Shown here one piece after another: positions 14,055-33,806 of a stretch of DNA of 35,261 bases. The translations under genes were made by a program, and so were the position numbers. Under the pieces are notes generated by a model. The model was not told where the DNA came from. It made no database searches and saw nothing but the letters and a program-made list of their open reading frames with translations. Source of the DNA: a virus; the IMG/VR virus record IMGVR_UViG_3300010885_009282, positions 1-35,261 of that record; one strand, given 5' to 3'. The first letter of the stretch is position 1, and every line of letters begins with the position of its first letter.

Positions 14055-15443
14055 TTAATTTTGTTTAATACTGGCTAACATTTGTTTTAACTTACTGCTG
14101 TTTATCTCAGCATTAATCTTAGGAGTATCCACTGGTTTTTCTACCGGTCTTAATATATTCTGTTGTTTTATTTGACTCATTATGCTACTGGGTTTCTTTG
14201 CAATGCCGCCTTCATCTTCGGGCGCATCCATAATACGCAATGTATCGATGTCAAATTGAAGTTCAACTTTTTGTCCCACACCACTACTACTACGAGTTTT
14301 CATACACTGCAATTGATAACGCCCATGCTCTCGCATTGCTCTACTGGTAAAAATACCAAACAAGTTATCTGCTGTATTAATCTTACTAATGCCACCACTA
14401 ATATGACTGTGATCAAATTCAATTTCTTCAACAGCAGCACGATTTAACTGACTTGCAGTGACCAACAACATCTGCAATTCTTTTGCAAGATTACGAACCT
14501 CTTCTGCAACGTATTTGTCCTTAACAAACAAATCACTTGGACTTACCTTAGCACTAACTGGCATTAGCAGATCCATATAATCCAGCATAATAAAGTCTAA
14601 CTTAGTGTTAGTTTTAATCTGTAGTTCTTTGAGATATGCTCGGATGTCGTTTACATTGCTTTGTGCTGGCATGTATTTGATTTGTAAGTTGCCGGCTTTC
14701 TTACCAACCATGCGAATCTTCATATCAACTGTATCAATTTCTTTGAAGATATCCTTACTACTGATATTTGCAAGCATACTATCGATACGCATCGATGTAA
14801 GTTCTTCACTCAATTCTAATGTTATATAAACACCATTAAGTCCCATAAGCATCCAGTTAACAGCAATGTTCTGCATGAATAGTGACTTACCGCTACCAGA
14901 ACCGCCAGCAAAGATATTAAGTTCGCCCCTGTTAAAGCCACCATATAGCAACTTATCCAGAGTAGTCCATCCTGTACTTACTTGCCCGTTATTATCTTTA
15001 ATCCTCATCAATCTCCCTTTGGGATCAGCGAAGTAATCTGTACCCATATCCTTAGTAAGGCTAATTTGCACTGCATCTTTGATTAGTTTTTCAACTGGAT
15101 CATACTCACCTTTTTCTAGTAGATCTGCTGCTTTTAGAATTGCACGTTCAAGTTCTTTCTGTCTGGTGAATCCTTCAAACTCTTCAAGAAACCAATTATA
15201 ATGCTCTTCATGTAGCCCAGGAGCAGGTTGTAAATCACTCTTACATACAGCATTAATCTGTTCAAACGTGGGCATAGAGTTATGCTTTTCACAGTGAGTT
15301 TTAATAAACTCAGCAGGAATTCGCAAACTTCTATCAAAGTTCTCGATGTTATAGATATTTTGAACACGGACAAAACTCTGAGAGTCTTGAACCATCATCT
15401 CCAAAAATAACTTCTGTATACCGGATTCGTAATTATTTGCCAT
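14055..15443 (-). CDS. 41: Replicative DNA helicase, T4 gp41 type (DnaB family)
   Basis: 462 aa, close to T4 gp41 length. It is a hexameric 5'-3' helicase that unwinds DNA at the fork and works with primase gp61. The N-terminal helical domain is followed by a RecA-type core. Walker A is GGSGSGKS (about residues 180-187), the Walker B strand is FIMLDYMD, and LVTASQLNRAA and GGISKINTADNLFGIF are typical DnaB-family H3/H4-region motifs. The ATG lies 7 bases after a TATAAT box with no ribosome-binding site, so a leaderless message is predicted. The divergent radical SAM gene starts 63 bases away. Confidence 0.93.
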   Translation of the reverse strand: MANNYESGIQKLFLEMMVQDSQSFVRVQNIYNIENFDRSLRIPAEFIKTHCEKHNSMPTFEQINAVCKSDLQPAPGLHEEHYNWFLEEFEGFTRQKELERAILKAADLLEKGEYDPVEKLIKDAVQISLTKDMGTDYFADPKGRLMRIKDNNGQVSTGWTTLDKLLYGGFNRGELNIFAGGSGSGKSLFMQNIAVNWMLMGLNGVYITLELSEELTSMRIDSMLANISSKDIFKEIDTVDMKIRMVGKKAGNLQIKYMPAQSNVNDIRAYLKELQIKTNTKLDFIMLDYMDLLMPVSAKVSPSDLFVKDKYVAEEVRNLAKELQMLLVTASQLNRAAVEEIEFDHSHISGGISKINTADNLFGIFTSRAMREHGRYQLQCMKTRSSSGVGQKVELQFDIDTLRIMDAPEDEGGIAKKPSSIMSQIKQQNILRPVEKPVDTPKINAEINSSKLKQMLASIKQN

Positions 15444-15505: not shown

Positions 15506-16627
15506 ATGCATATAGTTGAACCAGCAATTGATCCACAGAATAAAATTAGTTTCTTATTGGATTGGGAAATTACTTTACGTTGCAATTTAGATTGCAGTTA
15601 TTGTACATCAATGTATCATGATAATAGCACCCAACATCCGCCACTCAGTGACTGTTTAAAAACTATAGATTTTATGTTTGAATATGTCAACATCTATATG
15701 CAAAATAAGCCAAAATGGGGTAGAGAAGTTATACTAAATGTCTACGGTGGGGAAAGTATTTTTCATCCCGATATTATAACCATATACAAGACGATACGAG
15801 AGAAATATAAAAAGTTTGAAAATGATTGGGGATTGACAGTACAAACCACTACAAATTTAGTAGCAGGTAAATCGCTTATTAATAAGTTAAAAGATACCAT
15901 TGATTATTGGACAGTAAGTTATCATACAGAAGCCAATCAAAAACAAAAATCCCAATTCAAAAATAATGTACTAAGTCTTAAAAAATATGGGAAAAAAGTT
16001 AAAGTCATTGTATTAATGAATCCACATAAATTTGATGATGCAATCAATATGATTGAATTCTGTAAAGAAAATAATTTAGAATTCCTTCCGCGGCAATTAG
16101 ACAAGTTTGATGATAAGCACACATACTCCAGCGAACAAATAAATTGGCTTAATAACTTGTATAATAACAAGAGTTATAAAACAGAAGAAATTCAAATTGA
16201 TGACAGTAAAGATCTCAACATGTCTAAAGTTGGAAGAGCTTGCTGTGGTGGAAGACAACTATGCACAAATGGCAATTTTAAAGAACGCAACTTCTTTATA
16301 AAAAATAATTTTGAAGGATGGAGTTGTAGTGTTAATTGGTTCTTTCTTTATATTAGACAGATTTCTAAAGAAGTTTATCACAACAAAGATTGTCGTATGA
16401 AATTAGATGGAACTGTTGGACCATTTGGACATCTAGATCAAGCAGATTTAATCTTATCAGAATTGAAAAGTATGATGACTAACGGAATGCCTACTATACA
16501 ATGTGCTAAAAAATCTTGTTTATGTGGACTATGCTCCCCTAAGGCAAGCAATCAAATTGATTTTCAAAAGATGTTTTCAAAATATGTTAGTTATCAACCC
16601 AACGCTTCATCATCAACTGAATCTTAA
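15506..16627 (+). CDS. Radical SAM enzyme with SPASM-like cysteine-rich C-terminus
   Basis: 373 aa. CNLDCSYC (C26, C30, C33) is the CxxxCxxC signature that binds the [4Fe-4S] cluster cleaving S-adenosylmethionine; VYGGES is the GGE SAM-binding motif. The C-terminal third carries extra cysteines (RACCGGRQLC, WSCSVNW, CAKKSCLCGLC) that suggest auxiliary clusters, as in SPASM or Twitch domains. The substrate is unknown; peptide modification or a sugar/base change are options. It is on the plus strand between the primase and helicase genes and overlaps the primase 3' end by 41 bases. No clear ribosome-binding site precedes it. It looks like an added cargo gene. Confidence 0.85.
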   Translation: MHIVEPAIDPQNKISFLLDWEITLRCNLDCSYCTSMYHDNSTQHPPLSDCLKTIDFMFEYVNIYMQNKPKWGREVILNVYGGESIFHPDIITIYKTIREKYKKFENDWGLTVQTTTNLVAGKSLINKLKDTIDYWTVSYHTEANQKQKSQFKNNVLSLKKYGKKVKVIVLMNPHKFDDAINMIEFCKENNLEFLPRQLDKFDDKHTYSSEQINWLNNLYNNKSYKTEEIQIDDSKDLNMSKVGRACCGGRQLCTNGNFKERNFFIKNNFEGWSCSVNWFFLYIRQISKEVYHNKDCRMKLDGTVGPFGHLDQADLILSELKSMMTNGMPTIQCAKKSCLCGLCSPKASNQIDFQKMFSKYVSYQPNASSSTES

Positions 16628-17603
16628 GATTGCTAGTCTCAACACTATCCAGGATACTACGCATCGTAAATAACTGCCCATATTGAGCAACAGCATCGGA
16701 CGAATCTTTGATATTTTGACCCCAATCTGGAAATGCAACATTCCACCCATATTCCATTGCGTCTCTAATTAAAGACATTCCTGCTTTATCTCTGTCGGGG
16801 ACAACAATAACTTCTCTATTCAAACTATCAATGATATTTGCTTGAGATTCATTGCATTCGTTTGTAAGGATAGAAAGCCCATCAATTGCAATAGCATCAA
16901 ATACACCTTCAACAACTAGACAGAATTTAGCATCCTGTTGTTGCTTATCGTAATTGAATACAAAATGTGGTGGATGTTCTGTATAATACTTTCTCTTAGC
17001 AGGAATTATACTTCTTCCAGTGTACCCCATTGGTTGTCCGAGCCAAGTAAATGGAGCAAGCACACGATTGTATATGTGTGTGTTTTTATCGTTATGCCAT
17101 TTAAAGTAATCTACTTTGTTCTCAAGTCCTCTTGAATCTACATAATCAAGTATTTTTATTGCTTGATCTAAATCATCAGCAGTTATATCCTGCATGACAA
17201 ACCAATCTAGTAGATCATGCCCTGGGCAAACTTCTTTACATTCAAATTTAGGAAGTTCTTTAATAACTTCTTTCTTAACATCTAAACTTGTATCTAGATT
17301 ACTAAGAGCAAATAAACTAAGACGACGTATATCATCTTCGCTTACTCCCATCCATCCCAGTAGTTTACGCATCTTAAGAGTAATGCGTCGTCCAGGTTGC
17401 CAGCCAGCAGTAAAGCCACAGTTAAAGCAATGGTAACTAACCCCACTTTCTCGAGTGGGTAGCATGCCGCCTCTGCCACGCTGATCAGTATTTTGCCCAT
17501 TATGGTGGCAGCATACAGCATTAGCACTAATCCAACCAGCAGCAGTACCCTTGGTTCTACGACCATTAGTCCATGCTGATAGTATTTCCTGTTGGATAAA
17601 CAT
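16587..17603 (-). CDS. 61: DNA primase, T4 gp61 type
   Basis: 338 aa, matching T4 gp61. It makes RNA primers for the lagging strand and binds gp41. The N-terminal zinc-binding part has CCHHNGQ (residues 31-37) and YHCFNCGF (C59, C62). The Toprim part shows CLVVEGVFDAIAIDG (the Glu motif) and VIVVPDRDKAG (the D-x-D motif). A TATAAT box ends 5 bases before the ATG with no ribosome-binding site, implying a leaderless message. The 3' end overlaps the convergent radical SAM gene by 41 bases, so antisense pairing of the two mRNAs is possible. Confidence 0.92.
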   Translation of the reverse strand: MFIQQEILSAWTNGRRTKGTAAGWISANAVCCHHNGQNTDQRGRGGMLPTRESGVSYHCFNCGFTAGWQPGRRITLKMRKLLGWMGVSEDDIRRLSLFALSNLDTSLDVKKEVIKELPKFECKEVCPGHDLLDWFVMQDITADDLDQAIKILDYVDSRGLENKVDYFKWHNDKNTHIYNRVLAPFTWLGQPMGYTGRSIIPAKRKYYTEHPPHFVFNYDKQQQDAKFCLVVEGVFDAIAIDGLSILTNECNESQANIIDSLNREVIVVPDRDKAGMSLIRDAMEYGWNVAFPDWGQNIKDSSDAVAQYGQLFTMRSILDSVETSNLKIQLMMKRWVDN

Positions 17604-17608
17604 AGTTT

Positions 17609-17637
17609 ATTATAGCAGATTAATTATGGTCTGTAAA
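17609..17637 (-). promoter_or_regulatory. Sigma70 promoter of gp61, predicted leaderless
   Basis: TTTACA (17632-17637), 17-base spacer, TATAAT (17609-17614), then AAACT and the ATG. Five of six -35 bases and all -10 bases match consensus. The -35 lies inside the end of the previous gene. Confidence 0.75.
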
Positions 17638-18424
17638 GTATCTTGTTAAGTGTGCCCTGCTGGGTTTGAATCTTAAATCTAATTAGACCAAACTTACCAT
17701 TGAAATTTTCAAAGTAACAACCTGTATTACCACCAAAGTAAATGTAAGTAATATCAAACCAATCATCTGGATACGCAGTTAGAGTAGCACTTAAACTACC
17801 CTGTATCCAAACCTGTCCAACAAAGTCTGAGACACTATACTGTACTGTTTGCTGTACATCACGTGCCTTGACACGATCAAAAACATTTAAGACATCGCTG
17901 TAAGCATATGTGCCATCACTATACCCATTGAAGTTAGGATTGTTATTATAGAATGGTCCCAACTTTGGTTCTAAACTTGGTTGAAAAGTTGGATAAACTC
18001 CTTCAACAATACGTGCTTGTCCTTGTGCATTGTAGTTGTCATCTGCATAGACTATTTTAAATTCGCCATCGCTCGAAATAAGTTGAATACTGTAATTATA
18101 AATTCCAGCAGTTAGATCATTTAGTTCTGTTCTATCCAATCTAAGATAAGCAGATCCTTTTTTATCACTGTAAGGAATAACTCTACTGGAGAATATTAGT
18201 TCCTTAGAAGCACTATCTATTAAATTAAAAATAACAGTTGTATCTAATAAACTCTGGAGTTTTTGATCTTGGTTCTTAACCAATAACTTGATCTTATTAT
18301 CGATACCTTTGAAAATTTGTAAAGGCTTTGCATACACCAGAGTGTTCTCCCTGTTGGGTAATGAGTCTGAATTAAATACCATGTCAATGGTTTGGTTATA
18401 TAAATATCCTGAGATTGATTGCAC
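17624..18424 (-). CDS. Probable virion structural protein
   Basis: 266 aa, beta-rich with many Tyr, Asn and Gly residues (GSAYLRLDRTELNDLTAGIY, FDITYIYFGGNTGCYF). The look resembles baseplate or fibre-associated proteins of T4-type marine phages, but no named family is assigned. It begins at a GTG after GGGG, about 20 bases downstream of CATAAATA, so late expression is expected even though replication genes flank it. The divergent plus-strand gene starts within this promoter. There is no signal peptide or membrane segment. Confidence 0.65.
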   Translation of the reverse strand: MQSISGYLYNQTIDMVFNSDSLPNRENTLVYAKPLQIFKGIDNKIKLLVKNQDQKLQSLLDTTVIFNLIDSASKELIFSSRVIPYSDKKGSAYLRLDRTELNDLTAGIYNYSIQLISSDGEFKIVYADDNYNAQGQARIVEGVYPTFQPSLEPKLGPFYNNNPNFNGYSDGTYAYSDVLNVFDRVKARDVQQTVQYSVSDFVGQVWIQGSLSATLTAYPDDWFDITYIYFGGNTGCYFENFNGKFGLIRFKIQTQQGTLNKILYRP

Positions 18425-18443
18425 TTTGAACCCCGTCTCCCAA

Positions 18444-18451
18444 TATTTATG
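18444..18451 (-). promoter_or_regulatory. Late-promoter-like CATAAATA
   Basis: One mismatch to TATAAATA, in the same form as two cassette promoters. It lies 19 bases before the GTG start of the structural-like gene and overlaps the ATG of the divergent plus-strand gene. Confidence 0.55.
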
Positions 18452-18823
18452 CCATTGAGTTTAGAACATTTGTTAGAGAATTATCCATTCCTTAGTTTTA
18501 TCAAATACACACATAGTGACTATGTAGGTGTTATACAAAATCACGACGGTGATATTGTTAGCATATATGCATTTAATAAACTTAGAACAGAAGAACACAA
18601 AAGATTATTTTTGGAACAAGCAGATATATGGTGGTGGGAAAGTAATAGACTTATCCCCATTAACATTTTTCTAAAAGATTCCTGGAGTGATTTTAGATAT
18701 AGTTTAGTAACATTAAATGTTAAAGATATTAAGGAACAACAAGGGCATGTTGTTAGTCTTTCTAACTTAGCAAATAAAAGAACTAAACGAAGAGTTGTTC
18801 AACTGGTTCGTAAATTAAGTTAA
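18449..18823 (+). CDS. Plus-strand orphan
   Basis: 124 aa from MPLSLEHLLENYPFL. It is a mixed alpha/beta protein with a Trp cluster (ADIWWWESNRLIP) and a basic C-terminus (ANKRTKRRVVQLVRKLS) that could bind nucleic acid. No family recognised. There is no good ribosome-binding site. The ATG overlaps the late motif of the opposite gene, and the stop overlaps the mini-DnaE gene end by 9 bases. A start 30 bases upstream is in frame but lacks support. Confidence 0.6.
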   Translation: MPLSLEHLLENYPFLSFIKYTHSDYVGVIQNHDGDIVSIYAFNKLRTEEHKRLFLEQADIWWWESNRLIPINIFLKDSWSDFRYSLVTLNVKDIKEQQGHVVSLSNLANKRTKRRVVQLVRKLS

Positions 18824-19393
18824 TAAGTTCATATGAACTGCTACTAATTGTGCATATGAAACTGCATGACTTTTCTTAAAGAAATACCCGTCATCAGATG
18901 GCTTATCCCATATTGTCTTGGCAACCTCTTTCCAAGACAAACCTATGAGATGCCGTTTCGCAGGGCGAATAATAGAAAGAAACATAGCCATGCGAGGTAT
19001 GGAAGTAATGGGATCAGGCATACGATTAATAAGATCGTAATGATTGCCGATATGAATAAGTTTCTCCACGAAGGATCTATCATTTAATAATTCCCAATTT
19101 GGTTCATGAGCAATCATTTCATTCAAATGATTTTCGTCTTTGATCAAACTGTACACATGTACATTTAATAAATCAAGTTTAATATATCCAAGTTCTTCAG
19201 CAGTAATATAATCAATATTAGATAACTTTGTAAATGTATTAGATGGTATGGGATTAACATAGATGCCAGTATTGTGTTTTGACCATTCATTATTACGATT
19301 TATACTAGCAGGAATGTGTCGAATATGTTTTAACACAGCATCTCTATCTGCAAAGTCGATGTCGATATCAGCATTAAACTTTTTCATAGGCAT
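18815..19393 (-). CDS. Miniature DnaE-like (C-family DNA polymerase alpha) palm protein
   Basis: 192 aa, against roughly 1100-1200 for DnaE. Segments match conserved DnaE blocks in the correct order. NADIDIDFADRD (D9, D11) corresponds to the LPDFDVDF loop with two catalytic aspartates. WSKHNTGIYVNPI matches the KHAGGVVIAP block. LGYIKLDLLNVHVYSLI (D74) matches VKFDFLGLRTL, holding the third catalytic Asp. SIPRMAMFLSIIRPA matches the ALxRPGP block, and FFKKSHAVSYAQLV matches FNKSHxxAYALVSY. The PHP, most fingers and C-terminal parts are missing. It is last in the gp62 operon. It could be a tiny polymerase or primer extender, or a repurposed non-catalytic palm. Activity is untested here. Confidence 0.75.
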   Translation of the reverse strand: MPMKKFNADIDIDFADRDAVLKHIRHIPASINRNNEWSKHNTGIYVNPIPSNTFTKLSNIDYITAEELGYIKLDLLNVHVYSLIKDENHLNEMIAHEPNWELLNDRSFVEKLIHIGNHYDLINRMPDPITSIPRMAMFLSIIRPAKRHLIGLSWKEVAKTIWDKPSDDGYFFKKSHAVSYAQLVAVHMNLLT

Positions 19394-19616
19394 CTTTCTG
19401 TATCAGATCAAACACATCGACTGCATATTGGTATTCAAATTGTTCTTCACCAAGTCCTGGAGCCCATGATATCATACGAAATCGTTCATGAACGTATCGT
19501 AACCAGTATATTTTTTTGTCAATGATCTTAGGCAACCACAGAAATTTCTTTCTCCATGGATGCCATTTCTGAGAAGGTTTTGGATTTGGATATGCATCTA
19601 TACCACCCCAGTTCAT
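19374..19616 (-). CDS. Small Trp-rich orphan upstream of mini-DnaE
   Basis: 80 aa, basic and aromatic (NWGGIDAYPNPKPSQKW, WRKKFLWLPKIIDKKIYWLR), no family recognised. Its start overlaps the preceding stop (ATGA), with GAGG 7 bases upstream. Its end overlaps the mini-DnaE start by 20 bases, so the two proteins are tightly coupled and may act together. The basic aromatic N-terminus could bind nucleic acid; this is only suggested by composition. Confidence 0.7.
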   Translation of the reverse strand: MNWGGIDAYPNPKPSQKWHPWRKKFLWLPKIIDKKIYWLRYVHERFRMISWAPGLGEEQFEYQYAVDVFDLIQKDAYEKV

Positions 19617-20329
19617 AGTCCAGCCTCTTTTAGAATATACTTTGCCATCTCTGCATCAGCAGGATAATCTTTAATCTTCTTTTGCCATATATCACTATCT
19701 ATATATGGCCACACTAACGTAATCTGTTCTGGATTTAGCCCAGCCAGAGCCAAAACACCACTGTCGCAGCAGTACAAACACCAAGCACTAATGCGACCGT
19801 TTCTAATATCACTGACGAGTCGGTTGGATGAAATGCCTTTGAAGTAATCATTGAATGGTTCTCCTGTTGCTTCAGACCACTCTTGCATATGCTCAATTGC
19901 TCTAGAAAGTGCGTCCTCAGTTGCTTCACTTGTTAGCAACTGCAACAGATATATATCATATATCTTTTCACGACACCAATGATCTATCTTTATATTATTC
20001 TTAATAACATAGTCAATGAAACGTGTTGCATTAATAGCACGTATACTATGACAATATCTTCCAAACTTGACAAATGCTGCATAGAACTGACTCTTGCAAA
20101 AGTCATCATATGTCTTTAATTTGGCACTACCTTGACTCAACTCATAAAAACGTATCCAAGCTTGGTATGCAAGACTTACTCCAATTTCAGTTTTCTGCTG
20201 TGCTCTGCGTTTTGGTTCGCACTGATGCGCAATAAGAGTAGTTTCCCTTACAAAGCCTTTGCCACAATACTGGCATTTGCAATCGCCTTCTTTAGCGTTT
20301 GCAACTGCTTCGGCAATAAAATTGGACAT
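19613..20329 (-). CDS. Zinc-finger protein of gp62 operon
   Basis: 238 aa from MSNFIAEAVANA. Residues about 17-40 form one zinc-finger-like unit (CKCQYCGKGFVRETTLIAHQ; Cys-x2-Cys, then His and Cys). The remainder is a helical domain with many Trp and Tyr residues and internal Cys pairs (AWCLYCCDSG). No named family. The ATG lies one base after the preceding stop (TGACATG), so coupling is likely; a TTG 12 bases earlier is the alternative. Operon membership suggests a DNA-replication accessory that contacts nucleic acid. Confidence 0.7.
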   Translation of the reverse strand: MSNFIAEAVANAKEGDCKCQYCGKGFVRETTLIAHQCEPKRRAQQKTEIGVSLAYQAWIRFYELSQGSAKLKTYDDFCKSQFYAAFVKFGRYCHSIRAINATRFIDYVIKNNIKIDHWCREKIYDIYLLQLLTSEATEDALSRAIEHMQEWSEATGEPFNDYFKGISSNRLVSDIRNGRISAWCLYCCDSGVLALAGLNPEQITLVWPYIDSDIWQKKIKDYPADAEMAKYILKEAGL

Positions 20330-20330
20330 G

Positions 20331-21095
20331 TCATTTTTCAATTTCTAAATAATCATCAATTGTTGTTAAGGTATCTATTTTTGTATAACTTTTATATTTT
20401 GCAATACTTCTATCTAGTAGGTCAATATATTTGTTTAATCGATCATCATATATAAAATATGGGTCAATTTTTTGGCAAAACATCCATAACAATTTACTGT
20501 GGTTCGGTATATAAACGCTATCATGTTGAACCCTGAGGTTATTCCAGGTAAAAGAATTTGTGTCATTGGGCAAATCTATATAGAAATCATAATTAATTTT
20601 CTTATCAATTGGATCTAATGTTAATTTTAATGTTTGCATAGGATTATCGTCATATAACATTATACGCAGTGTTACTGGTGCATCAATCAATGGGGATTGA
20701 TCTCTATGTTTGAGTATGTCTGTTCGCGTTGACCACATAGACCAATCATTTAGATCAGGATTTATGAATGAAAAGTATTCCATAAACTGTTCAAATAATT
20801 CAGGTGCTATTTTCTGTATTAATTTTTTAGAATTAGATTTGATAATTTTTTGATTATAATTGTTTTGTCCCCACATCTCTGCTTCATCATATGTTTTATC
20901 TTCTTCTTTTTCTGCTGGAATTCCGCATTTATTATGAAAATCTTTAAATTTCTCAATGTCATGAATAATAAATTTAGGGACGTCTAATGGAACATAAAGA
21001 TATGTTCCATAGGCTTTTTCAAATTCTTTTACTTTACCATTGGGCCATCTTTTACGATTTTCTGTTAAGATCGACTTGTTTATAACACAAACCAT
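20331..21095 (-). CDS. Possible 2OG-Fe(II)-type oxygenase-like protein
   Basis: 254 aa. The N-terminal half is helical and Lys-rich. The second half has beta strands with ILKHRDQSPL (H130, D132), TLRIMLYDD, and LRVQHDSVYIPNHSKLLW (H191, then K201). An HxD followed by a distal His and a basic residue is the metal- and 2-oxoglutarate-binding logic of double-stranded beta-helix dioxygenases. Spacing is plausible, but this is motif reading only. It lies third in the gp62 operon, 14 bases after the preceding stop, with AGGA about 10 bases before its ATG. A non-enzymatic role is equally possible. Confidence 0.4.
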   Translation of the reverse strand: MVCVINKSILTENRKRWPNGKVKEFEKAYGTYLYVPLDVPKFIIHDIEKFKDFHNKCGIPAEKEEDKTYDEAEMWGQNNYNQKIIKSNSKKLIQKIAPELFEQFMEYFSFINPDLNDWSMWSTRTDILKHRDQSPLIDAPVTLRIMLYDDNPMQTLKLTLDPIDKKINYDFYIDLPNDTNSFTWNNLRVQHDSVYIPNHSKLLWMFCQKIDPYFIYDDRLNKYIDLLDRSIAKYKSYTKIDTLTTIDDYLEIEK

Positions 21096-22364: not shown

Positions 22365-23095
22365 TAAGATTCCTTTAATTTCATTAAATTTAAGTATTGT
22401 TCGGCTATATTTTTTTGCTCGTCGACAGGAGTATGATATCCTACATCAAATGGTTCTTTCTTTACTAGTTCATCTACAAATTTATTGAATAAATCTAATA
22501 GATTAAACTCAAATGGCAAGAAATACTTTTCCGTAAACCAAATTGGTAAATCATGAAAAGGCATATTCTTATGATTGATTACCCAAGGGTTATATAAAAA
22601 TTTAATATTGAGATCATGCAATTTCCATAATCCACTGTTCAAAAGCCAATTGTCTTTTTGCTGTTGCCAATGTATTTCGTATATCAGTGCTGCATGAAGT
22701 GATACTGCATCTCTAATTGGTTTTGAAACTTTGTCTCGACGATATTCATGTGGATGATTGTCAATGACAGAAAACATAGTTTCACTAATTAGTTTAACAT
22801 TATCATCCTTAAAATAATTAAAATTTTTCAAACCAAGTTTTTTATTATATCTATTATTATCAACAGGAAATTCAATCCTATCGGGAGTTGTTGCATTAAT
22901 AAAAACCCAATCTGGTTTGATTTTAATTGCTTCTTCAATTTGTAATCGTATTACACTATTACTAATACCTTGCCTTGCATAATTGTGTAATTCTGCACCT
23001 AAATTTTTAGCAAGTATTTCAGACCAGTGAGTTCCAGAAAAATTTTGAAGATGTGAAACTGCACTAAAACTACAGCCACAGACCGCTATTTTCAT
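22364..23095 (-). CDS. SGNH/GDSL-hydrolase-like protein
   Basis: 243 aa. The first strand ends in VCGCSFS (S9), matching the GxS nucleophile block of SGNH hydrolases. ARQGISNSVIR fits the Gly block, FINATTPDR the Asn block, and DVGYHTPVDEQKNIAEQYL the C-terminal catalytic His block, although the usual D-x-x-H spacing is one residue longer. Phage members may trim acyl or acetyl groups from glycans, but no substrate is visible. Its ATGA overlaps the uvsW stop by 4 bases. Cytoplasmic, with no signal peptide. Confidence 0.6.
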   Translation of the reverse strand: MKIAVCGCSFSAVSHLQNFSGTHWSEILAKNLGAELHNYARQGISNSVIRLQIEEAIKIKPDWVFINATTPDRIEFPVDNNRYNKKLGLKNFNYFKDDNVKLISETMFSVIDNHPHEYRRDKVSKPIRDAVSLHAALIYEIHWQQQKDNWLLNSGLWKLHDLNIKFLYNPWVINHKNMPFHDLPIWFTEKYFLPFEFNLLDLFNKFVDELVKKEPFDVGYHTPVDEQKNIAEQYLNLMKLKES

Positions 23096-24543
23096 TTATA
23101 GTTAACCTTTTCAGTTGTAAATGGATAATTTGCTTCTTTATAAAATTGCTTGCGTTTATTTAAATGTCGCTTTGCAAATTTACAATTACCAGTTACATCC
23201 CAAATTTGAACATGCTCTTTGTCAGCCGCTTTACGGATGCCTCTGCCGATGCTTTGGATGACTCTAACAAAAGACTTACCGGGCTCAATAAGAACAAGAT
23301 TAAAAATACGAGGTATATTGATCCCAACAGCAGCAACACCATATGTCGCAATAATAGTCCGATCCATAGTATCTGCAATCTCATCATAATGCCCTTTACG
23401 ATCTGCTGTCTTCATATCACCTGAGATAAAAATACTGTTGGGAATTCTTGCAGCAAGTTCTTCGCCTGCTGAAATACGATCAACTAAAATAAGTGTATTA
23501 CCAGTGTTAATAATTTCGCTTGTTAACTTGGCAACATAATCTAATCTCTCAGGATTAGTAGTTAGATATTTTAATTCTTTCTGATAGTCTGTGAACTCAC
23601 TATGTTCTTCAGTTTGAATAATGTTAACATGGCATTGTGCTAAAACACCTCTATCTTGAAGTTCACTCGCACTAAGTTTATTAATTACATCACCAATGGC
23701 AACTTTTAAACTGACAAACTCAAACTGTTCTTTTGGAATAGTTCCTGTTAATCCCCAACGGATTGGGATATGCCCCATGTGTTCTGTTAGCAACGCTTTA
23801 AGAACATCGGCTTTAGCCATATGTACTTCGTCAACGATAACAGCAACAACATCTTCAATGAATTCAGCAATAGTAAAGTCTGTTTCCTTTTCCTTCTTGA
23901 TGATGTTATTCAAACTCTGCCATGTGCAAATAGTGTGTGTTTTGCCATAGTCCTTACGATCACCAAAGTAAACCCCAACATCAAGTCCCAAGTTGATATA
24001 GTCTTCTTCCGTCTGTGTTACCAAACTCTTGTTAGGCACAATAACAAGTGTACGCCCATATTCTTGGCACTTGTAACTAAGGGCAGCAGTCATAATTGTC
24101 TTGCCGGCGCCTGTTGCTACCTCTTGTAGGCATTGTGGATTGGCAAGAAAATTATTGATAATTTCAACTTGATAGTCCCGTAGCATTACAGATTGGCCAG
24201 ACGCGGGATGACCCTTAGGCCATTTAAAATCACTAAATGCCTCTTCGTCAACTTCAATAAAGTCAAATTGTGGCGCTGGTGGACGCTGATCATCCAAATC
24301 AATATGTACGTTGCGGTCAGTCAGCCATTCAATGATATCTGGTAGTAAATTAACATATGTTGTGCCACTTAGTTGGAAGTAAGCAACCTTACCATCCCAG
24401 CGTCCCAATCTAACAGCAGGAAGATATCTTGCATAAGGCACTTCATATTTGAATTTTGCAACAAGGCGACGTCGCATATCAACATCAAGCCCTTCAACCT
24501 TACAGTTTACTTCGTCATGAATTACTATCTTACAACTTGCCAT
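23092..24543 (-). CDS. uvsW: UvsW-type DNA/RNA-DNA helicase
   Basis: 483 aa, near T4 UvsW length. This SF2 helicase unwinds branched DNA and R-loops and drives the switch from origin- to recombination-dependent replication. The N-terminal double-strand-binding domain (KIVIHDEVNCKVEG, GRWDGKVAYF) is followed by motif I ATGAGKT, motif II VDEVHMAK, GLTGT, and motif VI QSIGRGIRK. The start is placed at MASCKIV: a TATATT -10 box lies 6 bases upstream, and the earlier ATG at 24558 would lie upstream of that predicted start point. A leaderless message is therefore predicted. Confidence 0.92.
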   Translation of the reverse strand: MASCKIVIHDEVNCKVEGLDVDMRRRLVAKFKYEVPYARYLPAVRLGRWDGKVAYFQLSGTTYVNLLPDIIEWLTDRNVHIDLDDQRPPAPQFDFIEVDEEAFSDFKWPKGHPASGQSVMLRDYQVEIINNFLANPQCLQEVATGAGKTIMTAALSYKCQEYGRTLVIVPNKSLVTQTEEDYINLGLDVGVYFGDRKDYGKTHTICTWQSLNNIIKKEKETDFTIAEFIEDVVAVIVDEVHMAKADVLKALLTEHMGHIPIRWGLTGTIPKEQFEFVSLKVAIGDVINKLSASELQDRGVLAQCHVNIIQTEEHSEFTDYQKELKYLTTNPERLDYVAKLTSEIINTGNTLILVDRISAGEELAARIPNSIFISGDMKTADRKGHYDEIADTMDRTIIATYGVAAVGINIPRIFNLVLIEPGKSFVRVIQSIGRGIRKAADKEHVQIWDVTGNCKFAKRHLNKRKQFYKEANYPFTTEKVNYK

Positions 24544-24549
24544 TCTGTT

Positions 24550-24578
24550 AATATACATCCTATTGCTTTTGAAATCAA
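24550..24578 (-). promoter_or_regulatory. Sigma70-like promoter of uvsW, predicted leaderless
   Basis: TTGATT (24573-24578), 17-base spacer, TATATT (24550-24555), then 6 bases to the ATG. It lies just downstream of a terminator, which marks a transcription-unit boundary. Confidence 0.65.
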
Positions 24579-28985: not shown

Positions 28986-29060
28986 TGGTGGAGGCCCGGG
29001 GAATCGAACCCCATAGACAATTTCCGTGCAAGGGAAATCCGTACACCCACTACTGCCCCC
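28986..29060 (-). tRNA. tRNA-Ala (anticodon UGC), CCA encoded
   Basis: 75 bases including an encoded 3' CCA. The acceptor GGGGGCA pairs with GGCCTCC and contains the G3.U70 wobble, the key alanine identity element, with one A7/G66 mismatch. The anticodon stem TTTCC/GGAAA encloses CTTGCAC, so the anticodon is TGC, reading GCA. The T-arm is GGGG-TTCGATT-CCCC. Only about 16 bases lie between acceptor and anticodon stems, giving an unusually short D-arm, and the variable region is 7 bases. It probably boosts GCA decoding. Confidence 0.85.
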
Positions 29061-32531: not shown

Positions 32532-32749
32532 TATTCATCATCTTCTTCATCTGCATCTTTAACTGTAATATGTTCTTTTATAGCACTCAACATTGCTTTA
32601 TCAACTGCTAAATCTTCAAGATCGTTGTCGTCAATTCCTAAATCAACTAATTCGTTAATTACATGATCAGCAGCAGCCTGTCTATCTTTACTAGGTATAT
32701 ATTCCTTAACAGTTTGCCAAAAAGCAACAAGAAATTCTGTATCACTCAT
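32531..32749 (-). CDS. Small acidic orphan between uvsX and uvsY-like
   Basis: 72 aa (MSDTEFLVAFWQTVKEYIP), helical with a strongly acidic tail (DADEEDDE). No recognised family; similar small acidic proteins sit next to uvsX in marine T4-type phages, by my recollection. Its start overlaps the uvsX end by 8 bases and its stop overlaps the next start by one base, so all three are coupled. The acidic tail might contact gp32, UvsX or DNA-binding surfaces. Confidence 0.7.
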   Translation of the reverse strand: MSDTEFLVAFWQTVKEYIPSKDRQAAADHVINELVDLGIDDNDLEDLAVDKAMLSAIKEHITVKDADEEDDE

Positions 32750-33806
32750 CTATCACTTCCTCTAGTTGTACATCAACAGTGGACTTAGCAGAAGTTTCAT
32801 TCCATTCGTCAATGATTACCATTAATTTATCATCTGTCCATCCCTTACGGAATTCCTTGATAATCTCACCAGTTGTTGAACTTGTATAAGCAAGCCTATT
32901 GCCTTCCTTAATCAGAATGCCCTTTGCTTCAAACATGTCAAGCAACCCACTAGTTGGACTCATTCCAGTCTCATAAGGGATTTCAACTTGTACTGACTCA
33001 AATGGTTTACTATACCGTGTCTTCATAACCTTACAAGCACTGCGAATACCATGGACCTGACTAGTCTTATTGCCATCAGCATCAGTTTTTAGTTTAAGTT
33101 TACGCATTGCTACAACAATGGAACTTGCGTAGATAAAGCCCTGCCCGCCGCTGATCTTGTCGTCTGGATCAAACATATCTTGTGATGCATACGTATGATT
33201 GGTACAGACCATACCTACATTTGCTGCGCCAAACATGTTAACACAATTACGAACAAGTGCTGTCAATGCCTTAGGCTTACGACCCATGTCGCCTTTCATC
33301 TCGCCTGCTTCGAACTGATTAACGTCAGTTGGAGTTAGCAACATGCCTAGTGAGTCAATAACAAACAATACTTTTGGCTTAGTTTCGCCATCCGGGATAG
33401 TCTTATACTGCTTCATAAACTCGCTAATAGTACGAGCAACGTCATCAATCATTGCCATGTTTAACTTTAGAAGTTTGTCTTCGCCAGTATCAACACCCAA
33501 CGCATGTAACCAAGCTTCGTCCAATGCGTTTTCGCTATCAATTAGAATACAAAAAATATCCTGCTTTTGTGCGTTCTTAATAATGTTACCGGAGCAAATA
33601 TAAGATTTGCCAGCACCCGATTCACCTGCAAATACTGTTACCTTACCGAGAGGAATACCTCTGTGAAAGTCACCACTAATGAGATAATTGAGTGTATAAT
33701 TGCCTGTTGAGATCCAATCTGTTGGATCATTGAACCCAAAACTAAGTCCGTCAATGCTTTTAGTTAGATCCTTACGGAATCTTGAAATATCAAATGGTTT
33801 TGCCAT
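32742..33806 (-). CDS. uvsX: Recombinase UvsX (RecA family)
   Basis: 354 aa. It catalyses strand exchange in recombination-dependent replication and repair. Walker A is GESGAGKS (residues 61-68), the Walker B strand is KVLFVIDSLGML, and MVCTNHTYASQDMFDPDDKISGGQGF matches the RecA/UvsX L2 region and following glycine loop. The length is close to T4 UvsX (about 390). AAGGAAA lies 6-7 bases before the ATG, unlike the leaderless replication genes. A weak promoter lies in the end of the preceding gene. It is followed by the acidic orphan and UvsY-like gene. Confidence 0.95.
   Translation of the reverse strand: MAKPFDISRFRKDLTKSIDGLSFGFNDPTDWISTGNYTLNYLISGDFHRGIPLGKVTVFAGESGAGKSYICSGNIIKNAQKQDIFCILIDSENALDEAWLHALGVDTGEDKLLKLNMAMIDDVARTISEFMKQYKTIPDGETKPKVLFVIDSLGMLLTPTDVNQFEAGEMKGDMGRKPKALTALVRNCVNMFGAANVGMVCTNHTYASQDMFDPDDKISGGQGFIYASSIVVAMRKLKLKTDADGNKTSQVHGIRSACKVMKTRYSKPFESVQVEIPYETGMSPTSGLLDMFEAKGILIKEGNRLAYTSSTTGEIIKEFRKGWTDDKLMVIIDEWNETSAKSTVDVQLEEVIDE

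Follow-up and report, generated by a model that had tools for sequence, protein, structure and literature searches.

The question raised by this locus is what a protein of only 192 amino acids could do with the conserved blocks of DnaE, the alpha subunit of bacterial DNA polymerase III (Pol III alpha). The protein is encoded on the minus strand of a 35,261-base virus fragment, IMG/VR record IMGVR_UViG_3300010885_009282 (the window), and most of this phage's genome lies outside that fragment. A first interpretation made from the letters of the window, referred to here as the sequence-only reading, had taken the protein for a miniature DnaE-like palm and had considered for it the roles of a minimal C-family polymerase, a primer extender, an end-filling enzyme or a decoy of the host polymerase. 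Our analysis indicates that it is almost certainly the C-terminal half (C-half) of a split Pol III alpha, the N-terminal half (N-half) of which is a second short protein encoded at a distant place in related phages. The passages of Iyer et al. 2021 (PMC7824862) that deal with this enzyme describe, for group 2.2 jumbo phages, a phage-specific minimal Pol III alpha which stands beside a B-family polymerase and is split into two proteins encoded at distant loci, an N-terminal one labelled nucleoside triphosphate (NTP)-binding and a C-terminal Mg2+- and template-binding one. According to the same passages, the two proteins together probably restore one enzyme, used for one strand or for repair.

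The reading frame 18815-19393 (minus strand, ATG start, 192 amino acids) matches the PHROGs family phrog_11778, 'DNA polymerase', over residues 4-191 of 192 with an E-value of 2.1e-56, and it matches phrog_405, the family of full-length phage DnaE, weakly (E 6.9e-5). Five DnaE blocks had been claimed to occur in order within the 192 residues and all of them are present, namely DIDIDF (residues 9-14), KHNTG (39-43), KLDLLN (72-77), IRPAKR (142-147) and FKKSHAVSYA (172-181). The gene and its blocks are located as follows, with the evidence in brackets:

18815..19393, minus strand: very probable C-half of the split minimal Pol III alpha (phrog_11778), 192 amino acids, with the palm metal site and reduced fingers (reading frame, phrog match, model, profile alignment)
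19355..19369, minus strand: DIDID block; D9, D11 and D13 correspond to E. coli DnaE D401, D403 and D405, D9 and D11 being predicted catalytic metal ligands (joined-profile hhalign, invariance in 16 phages)
19259..19276, minus strand: HNTGIY block; H40 and G43 correspond to E. coli H511 and G514 of KHAGGV (hhalign)
19163..19180, minus strand: KLDLLN block; K72 corresponds to E. coli K553 and D74 to the catalytic D555 (hhalign)
18953..18970, minus strand: IRPAKR block; R143 and P144 correspond to E. coli R639 and P640 of the fingers (hhalign)
18851..18880, minus strand: FKKSHAVSYA block; H176 and Y180 correspond to E. coli H760 and Y764 (hhalign)

The three aspartates proposed as catalytic, D9, D11 and D74, align with E. 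coli D401, D403 and D555, the last by direct hhalign comparison and the first two through a joined profile of both halves described below. When the window protein is aligned with 15 diverse relatives (16 phages in all), all three prove invariant, so that the homologues keep them as the sequence-only reading had expected; D13, H40, G43, K72, R143, P144, K146, H176 and Y180 are among the other invariant positions. Judged from the alignment, the thumb region is gone from the C-half: only 26 residues separate D13 from H40, against 105 between D405 and H511 in E. coli DnaE. The fingers are about half the size of those of DnaE, and the PHP domain and everything beyond E. coli residue 776 are absent. 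The ratio of nonsynonymous to synonymous substitutions (dN/dS) between the window gene and six relatives is 0.06-0.18. The gene is under purifying selection and is therefore not decaying, in line with what had been argued before.

Relatives of the C-half were found by tblastn in 63 phage records, nearly all of large phages, including RaK2, GAP32, CBB, 121Q, PA5oct, Atu_ph07, SCTP-2, XacN1 and their relatives. In IMG/VR, a scan gave 260 stretches that code for a relative, and the 80 best of them were retained. When the window was compared with phage records by megablast, no close relative came up, and the identity between its C-half and those of cultured jumbo phages amounts to only about 33-47%.

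In C-family polymerases the triphosphate of the incoming deoxynucleoside triphosphate (dNTP) is bound by a GRGS loop, which comprises residues 361-364 of E. coli DnaE. No G[RK]GS motif is present in the C-half reading frame or in any frame of the 35-kb window, and because of this the protein alone is unlikely to be a minimal polymerase. The description of the protein as a DnaE-like palm thus holds for a C-family piece with an intact metal site, whereas the protein lacks the other, Gly-Ser half of the palm, which binds the nucleotide. When large relatives were searched with PF07733, 14 of the 15 records proved to encode a further short protein, about 170-180 amino acids long, that carries GRGS. 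This N-half matches only about positions 13-98 of the 260 positions of PF07733 and belongs to phrog_11127, labelled 'DNA polymerase' in PHROGs, a family which includes CBB_328, noted as a 'truncated' alpha subunit in the CBB paper (PMC5259590).

The two halves occur together almost without exception. Sixty phage records are listed for the C-half, and all but one of them (59) list the N-half too; the one without it, PP728206, is 109 kb long and comes from a group whose genomes are near 350 kb in size. Among 19 large records, exactly one N-half is present in every one and exactly one C-half in 18, and a B-family polymerase, which the sequence-only reading had expected, was found in 16 of the 17 tested. 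The record lacking the C-half (G007) and the one lacking the B-family polymerase (G003) may be incomplete. The genes of the two halves lie from 11 kb to more than 200 kb apart; no fused or adjacent pair was seen, and the halves never occur together in any of the fetched loci, most of which reach up to 8 kb on each side where the contig allows. The arrangement is also present in Alishewanella phage Slickus01, a complete, circular genome of 141,644 bp that lies outside the jumbo class. Here the C-half (68346-68957) and the N-half (79796-80308) are 11 kb apart, and each matches its PHROG and keeps the catalytic residues.

The possibility that the split enzyme is the sole replicase of Slickus01 is ruled out by the presence of a B-family polymerase in two reading frames. 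The B-family polymerase appears to be split over two open frames in OQ508957.1 (3596-5100; L208 and L209) and also in NC_071039.1 and NC_042013.1, the frame lengths being 578 and 322 amino acids in the Alishewanella phage, 825 and 379 in PA5oct and 418 and 578 in Atu_ph07. A third C-family piece was encountered on a 167-kb IMG/VR contig which also holds both split halves (L060, L109). It is a compact single-chain DnaE of about 556 amino acids (L106:520-2190, minus strand) with matches to the PF07733 palm and the PF17657 finger and no PHP match.

The relation of the two proteins to DnaE was examined by comparing their profiles, apart and joined, with an alignment of eight DnaE sequences using the local score of hhalign. 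The N profile scores 88 and the C profile 60, while the joined N+C profile reaches 144 (E 1.5e-17); in the swapped-order control C+N the score is 90, which is no gain over the N profile alone. The joined profile runs collinearly with DnaE across the seam EFLK/MKFKSDIDIDF, which lies opposite ERFLNPERVSMPDFDVDF. N-half reading frames end within about 2 residues of EF[LFIM][KR], and most C-halves start 5 residues before the DIDID run; at the level of sequence, the position of the seam is fixed among the relatives.

AlphaFold2 models were built from family alignments for the C-half of the window (predicted local distance difference test, pLDDT, 89.3; predicted template modelling score, pTM, 0.66) and for an N-half from contig L115 (pLDDT 88.8, pTM 0.70). 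All of the top 14 matches to the C-half model in VIA-align are C-family polymerases (Z 6.0-9.1, with 173-189 of 192 residues aligned), as had been anticipated for a comparison with DnaE and PolC; rows outside the C-family score low, the best unrelated match having a Z of 3.4. For the N-half model, C-family polymerases are again on top, with Z up to 10.5 against 2.1 for the best unrelated match. The aligned ranges of the N-half and the C-half are 279-393 and 394-776 in E. coli DnaE (2hnh), 293-455 and 456-833 in the Taq enzyme (3e0d), 825-965 and 966-1291 in PolC (3f2b), and 307-413 and 413-803 in 5lew. In the models, therefore, the two halves tile the C-family structures without a gap.

These observations suggest, with good probability, a miniature DNA polymerase III alpha made of two chains, in which the protein is the half that binds Mg2+ and the template. 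It is likewise probable that both halves form one active nucleotidyl-transferring enzyme, as the invariant residues on either side of the composite site suggest. The arrangement looks like that of a small DnaE severed in the loop that immediately precedes the catalytic DxDxD strand. The N-half and the C-half would associate non-covalently into one composite palm, in which the GRGSS loop of the N-half would hold the triphosphate of the incoming dNTP and the C-half would give D9, D11 and D74 for the metals together with a reduced finger. Such an enzyme would be of low processivity because it is without the thumb, PHP, clamp-binding and OB parts, and it may serve as a second polymerase alongside the B-family replicase, the clamp and the primase-helicase of the phage, possibly in primer extension, gap filling, the synthesis of one strand or repair. 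The chances that the enzyme works on a template as a second polymerase of the replisome, and not as another nucleotidyltransferase, are in our judgement even or slightly better. The fullest form of the proposal, in which a thumb-less C-family polymerase, obligately made of two chains with about 360 residues between them, is active as a second replicative enzyme beside the B-family replicase, falls just short of an even chance. We know of no smaller C-family enzyme.

Several observations weigh against this proposal and temper it. The profile search against C-family polymerases suggested by the sequence-only reading succeeded in part: it led to phrog_11778, phrog_405 and, by hhalign, DnaE, while Pfam gave no match for the 192-residue protein and the profile of the C-half found nothing up to E 1 among PDB sequences. 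Because both of these searches were empty, the DnaE similarity of the C-half is weak by sequence alone, although the match of its model to C-family structures shows that it does not arise by chance, and in view of the PDB result a comparison of structures and of profile with profile is needed. The Foldseek E-values are weak for both models (best 4.5e-3 and 3.3e-2), and the pTM of each is moderate. Residues 1-70 of the N-half (for example that encoded at L115:8001-8510) are confidently modelled and lie outside the C-family matches, which cover about residues 71-170. The primer-template is held by the thumb in DnaE, and because the thumb is missing the real polymerase activity may be poor or the substrate different. 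The partner of the window phage is assumed from relatives because no N-half was found in the 35-kb fragment. Finally, a literature search that took in papers after 2021, and outside which most subscription papers lay, found no experimental test of the split enzyme, and the literature examined holds no activity, complex or expression data for it.

The best surviving alternative, which we nevertheless consider unlikely, is that the complex of the two proteins, its metal site intact, acts as some other nucleotidyltransferase, in end filling, template-independent addition or the processing of primer or RNA ends. The absence of a thumb (26 residues against 105) and the half-sized fingers would suit such an enzyme, as would the place of C-family palms within the Pol beta nucleotidyltransferase superfamily, stated in the passages of Iyer et al. 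(PMC7824862) on these folds. However, the finger residues R143, P144, H176 and Y180 and the full order of DnaE blocks are kept, and the clamp loader, primase and helicase encoded near the halves fit templated synthesis. Much less probable is a role as decoy or inhibitor, in which a mimic of DnaE would poison the host replicase. The protein does resemble the host enzyme, and host replication is often targeted by phages; however, it lacks the regions of alpha with which epsilon (PHP), the clamp and tau (C-terminal domain) interact, catalytic residues that a decoy does not need are invariant, and the family spans phages of many host groups and sits within phage replication gene clusters.

The exact abutment of the two proteins, for which the split-intein DnaE of cyanobacteria would be a precedent, could also mean that they are rejoined by split-intein splicing or RNA trans-splicing into a continuous short DnaE, which seems very improbable. 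No intein halves are present at the seam, where the N-half ends and the C-half starts without space for them, each half has its own start and stop codon, and no Rfam family, introns included, was found in the window, where one was sought as a sign of trans-splicing. Because there is no room for inteins and no such family in the window, the two chains most likely associate as such. That the C-half by itself is a minimal stand-alone polymerase or primer extender can hardly be maintained: all three catalytic aspartates do lie in this one protein, but the Gly-Ser half that binds the dNTP triphosphate is another protein, the product of a separate gene, and the model matches C-family enzymes only past residue 393 (E. 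coli numbering). Just as improbable is a conserved structural role in the replisome without catalysis, which a neighbouring gene annotated as virion structural would allow, since three invariant metal ligands and an invariant GRGS in the partner would then be unexpected.

The genes around the C-half in the window follow the layout that is counted below in the relatives: UvsW, C-half, convergent gene, phrog_14467, primase and DnaB. Counts refer to IMG/VR loci with enough flanking sequence (27 for the C-half and 52 for the N-half):

18419..18823, plus strand: convergent small gene of phrog_11637, 134 amino acids, function unknown, overlapping the 3' end of the C-half gene
17624..18424, minus strand: phrog_14467, 'virion structural protein', the next gene on the same strand (27 of 27 testable relatives)
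16587..17603, minus strand: DNA primase (phrog_47), downstream in 17 of 27 C-half loci
14055..15443, minus strand: DnaB-like replicative helicase (phrog_19), in 16 of 27 C-half loci
23092..24558, minus strand: UvsW-like DNA helicase (phrog_16), upstream in 22 of 27 C-half loci
19374..19616, minus strand: gene of 80 amino acids that overlaps the C-half gene at its start and weakly matches phrog_11031/18133

Convergence of the phrog_11637 gene on the C-half was seen in each of the 27 relatives that could be tested and in most large phages with annotation, XacN1 having an extra gene between the two. In all 52 N-half loci, a clamp loader follows downstream on the same strand. With a clamp loader beside the N-half and UvsW, primase and DnaB beside the C-half, both halves are therefore placed among replisome genes, in different clusters.

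Other features of the window include a radical SAM gene (15506-16627, plus strand) between the primase and DnaB genes, which overlaps the 3' end of the primase gene and for which the inspected relatives have no annotation at the equivalent place. The reading frame 19613-20341 (minus strand), two genes upstream of the C-half, encodes a 242-amino-acid protein of phrog_11058. Close to the start of this protein is a C2H2-like zinc finger, a match that falls short of the Pfam cut-off (E 0.0016). The window also contains tRNA-Ala(tgc) (28986-29060), the ribonucleotide reductase large subunit (457-2793) and a UvsX-like recombinase (32742-33806), all on the minus strand.

If the two halves are active, they would show how little of DNA polymerase III suffices for catalysis, and they would bear on the idea of Iyer et al. 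that early forms of the replication machinery are preserved in such phages. One replisome would then mix two unrelated replicative families, a bacterial-type polymerase and a T4/eukaryote-type one. The exact, conserved seam and the near-perfect co-occurrence make this prediction directly testable with two small proteins.

Compared with bacterial DnaE and PolC, the phage enzyme keeps the catalytic aspartates and the KHAGG-like, K.DFL, RP and KSH..YA blocks in the same order, and by the models it has the same fold. It differs in consisting of two chains, with the GRGS loop in the separate phrog_11127 protein, and in lacking the PHP, thumb, clamp-binding, OB and C-terminal domains, its fingers being about half size. 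In cyanobacteria, DnaE is likewise encoded by two distant genes, and its pieces are joined by a split intein. The likeness lies in a C-family polymerase made from two distant genes; however, splicing occurs there at another site, and no intein is present in the phage halves. In PHROGs, phrog_11778 and phrog_11127 are both labelled only 'DNA polymerase' and are not connected. The closest known system is the split Pol III alpha of Iyer et al. 2021, in which the enzyme was already known as a prediction, and the phage set covered in the passages concerned includes Atu_ph07, whose copy belongs to the same family as the window protein. Those passages (PMC7824862) do not set out a residue-level seam and are concerned with jumbo phages, whereas the split arrangement is also present in the complete 141-kb Alishewanella phage. 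What is new here is this member of the family, the seam resolved to the residue, the constancy of the gene contexts and the presence of both halves in a complete phage genome of 141 kb outside the jumbo class.
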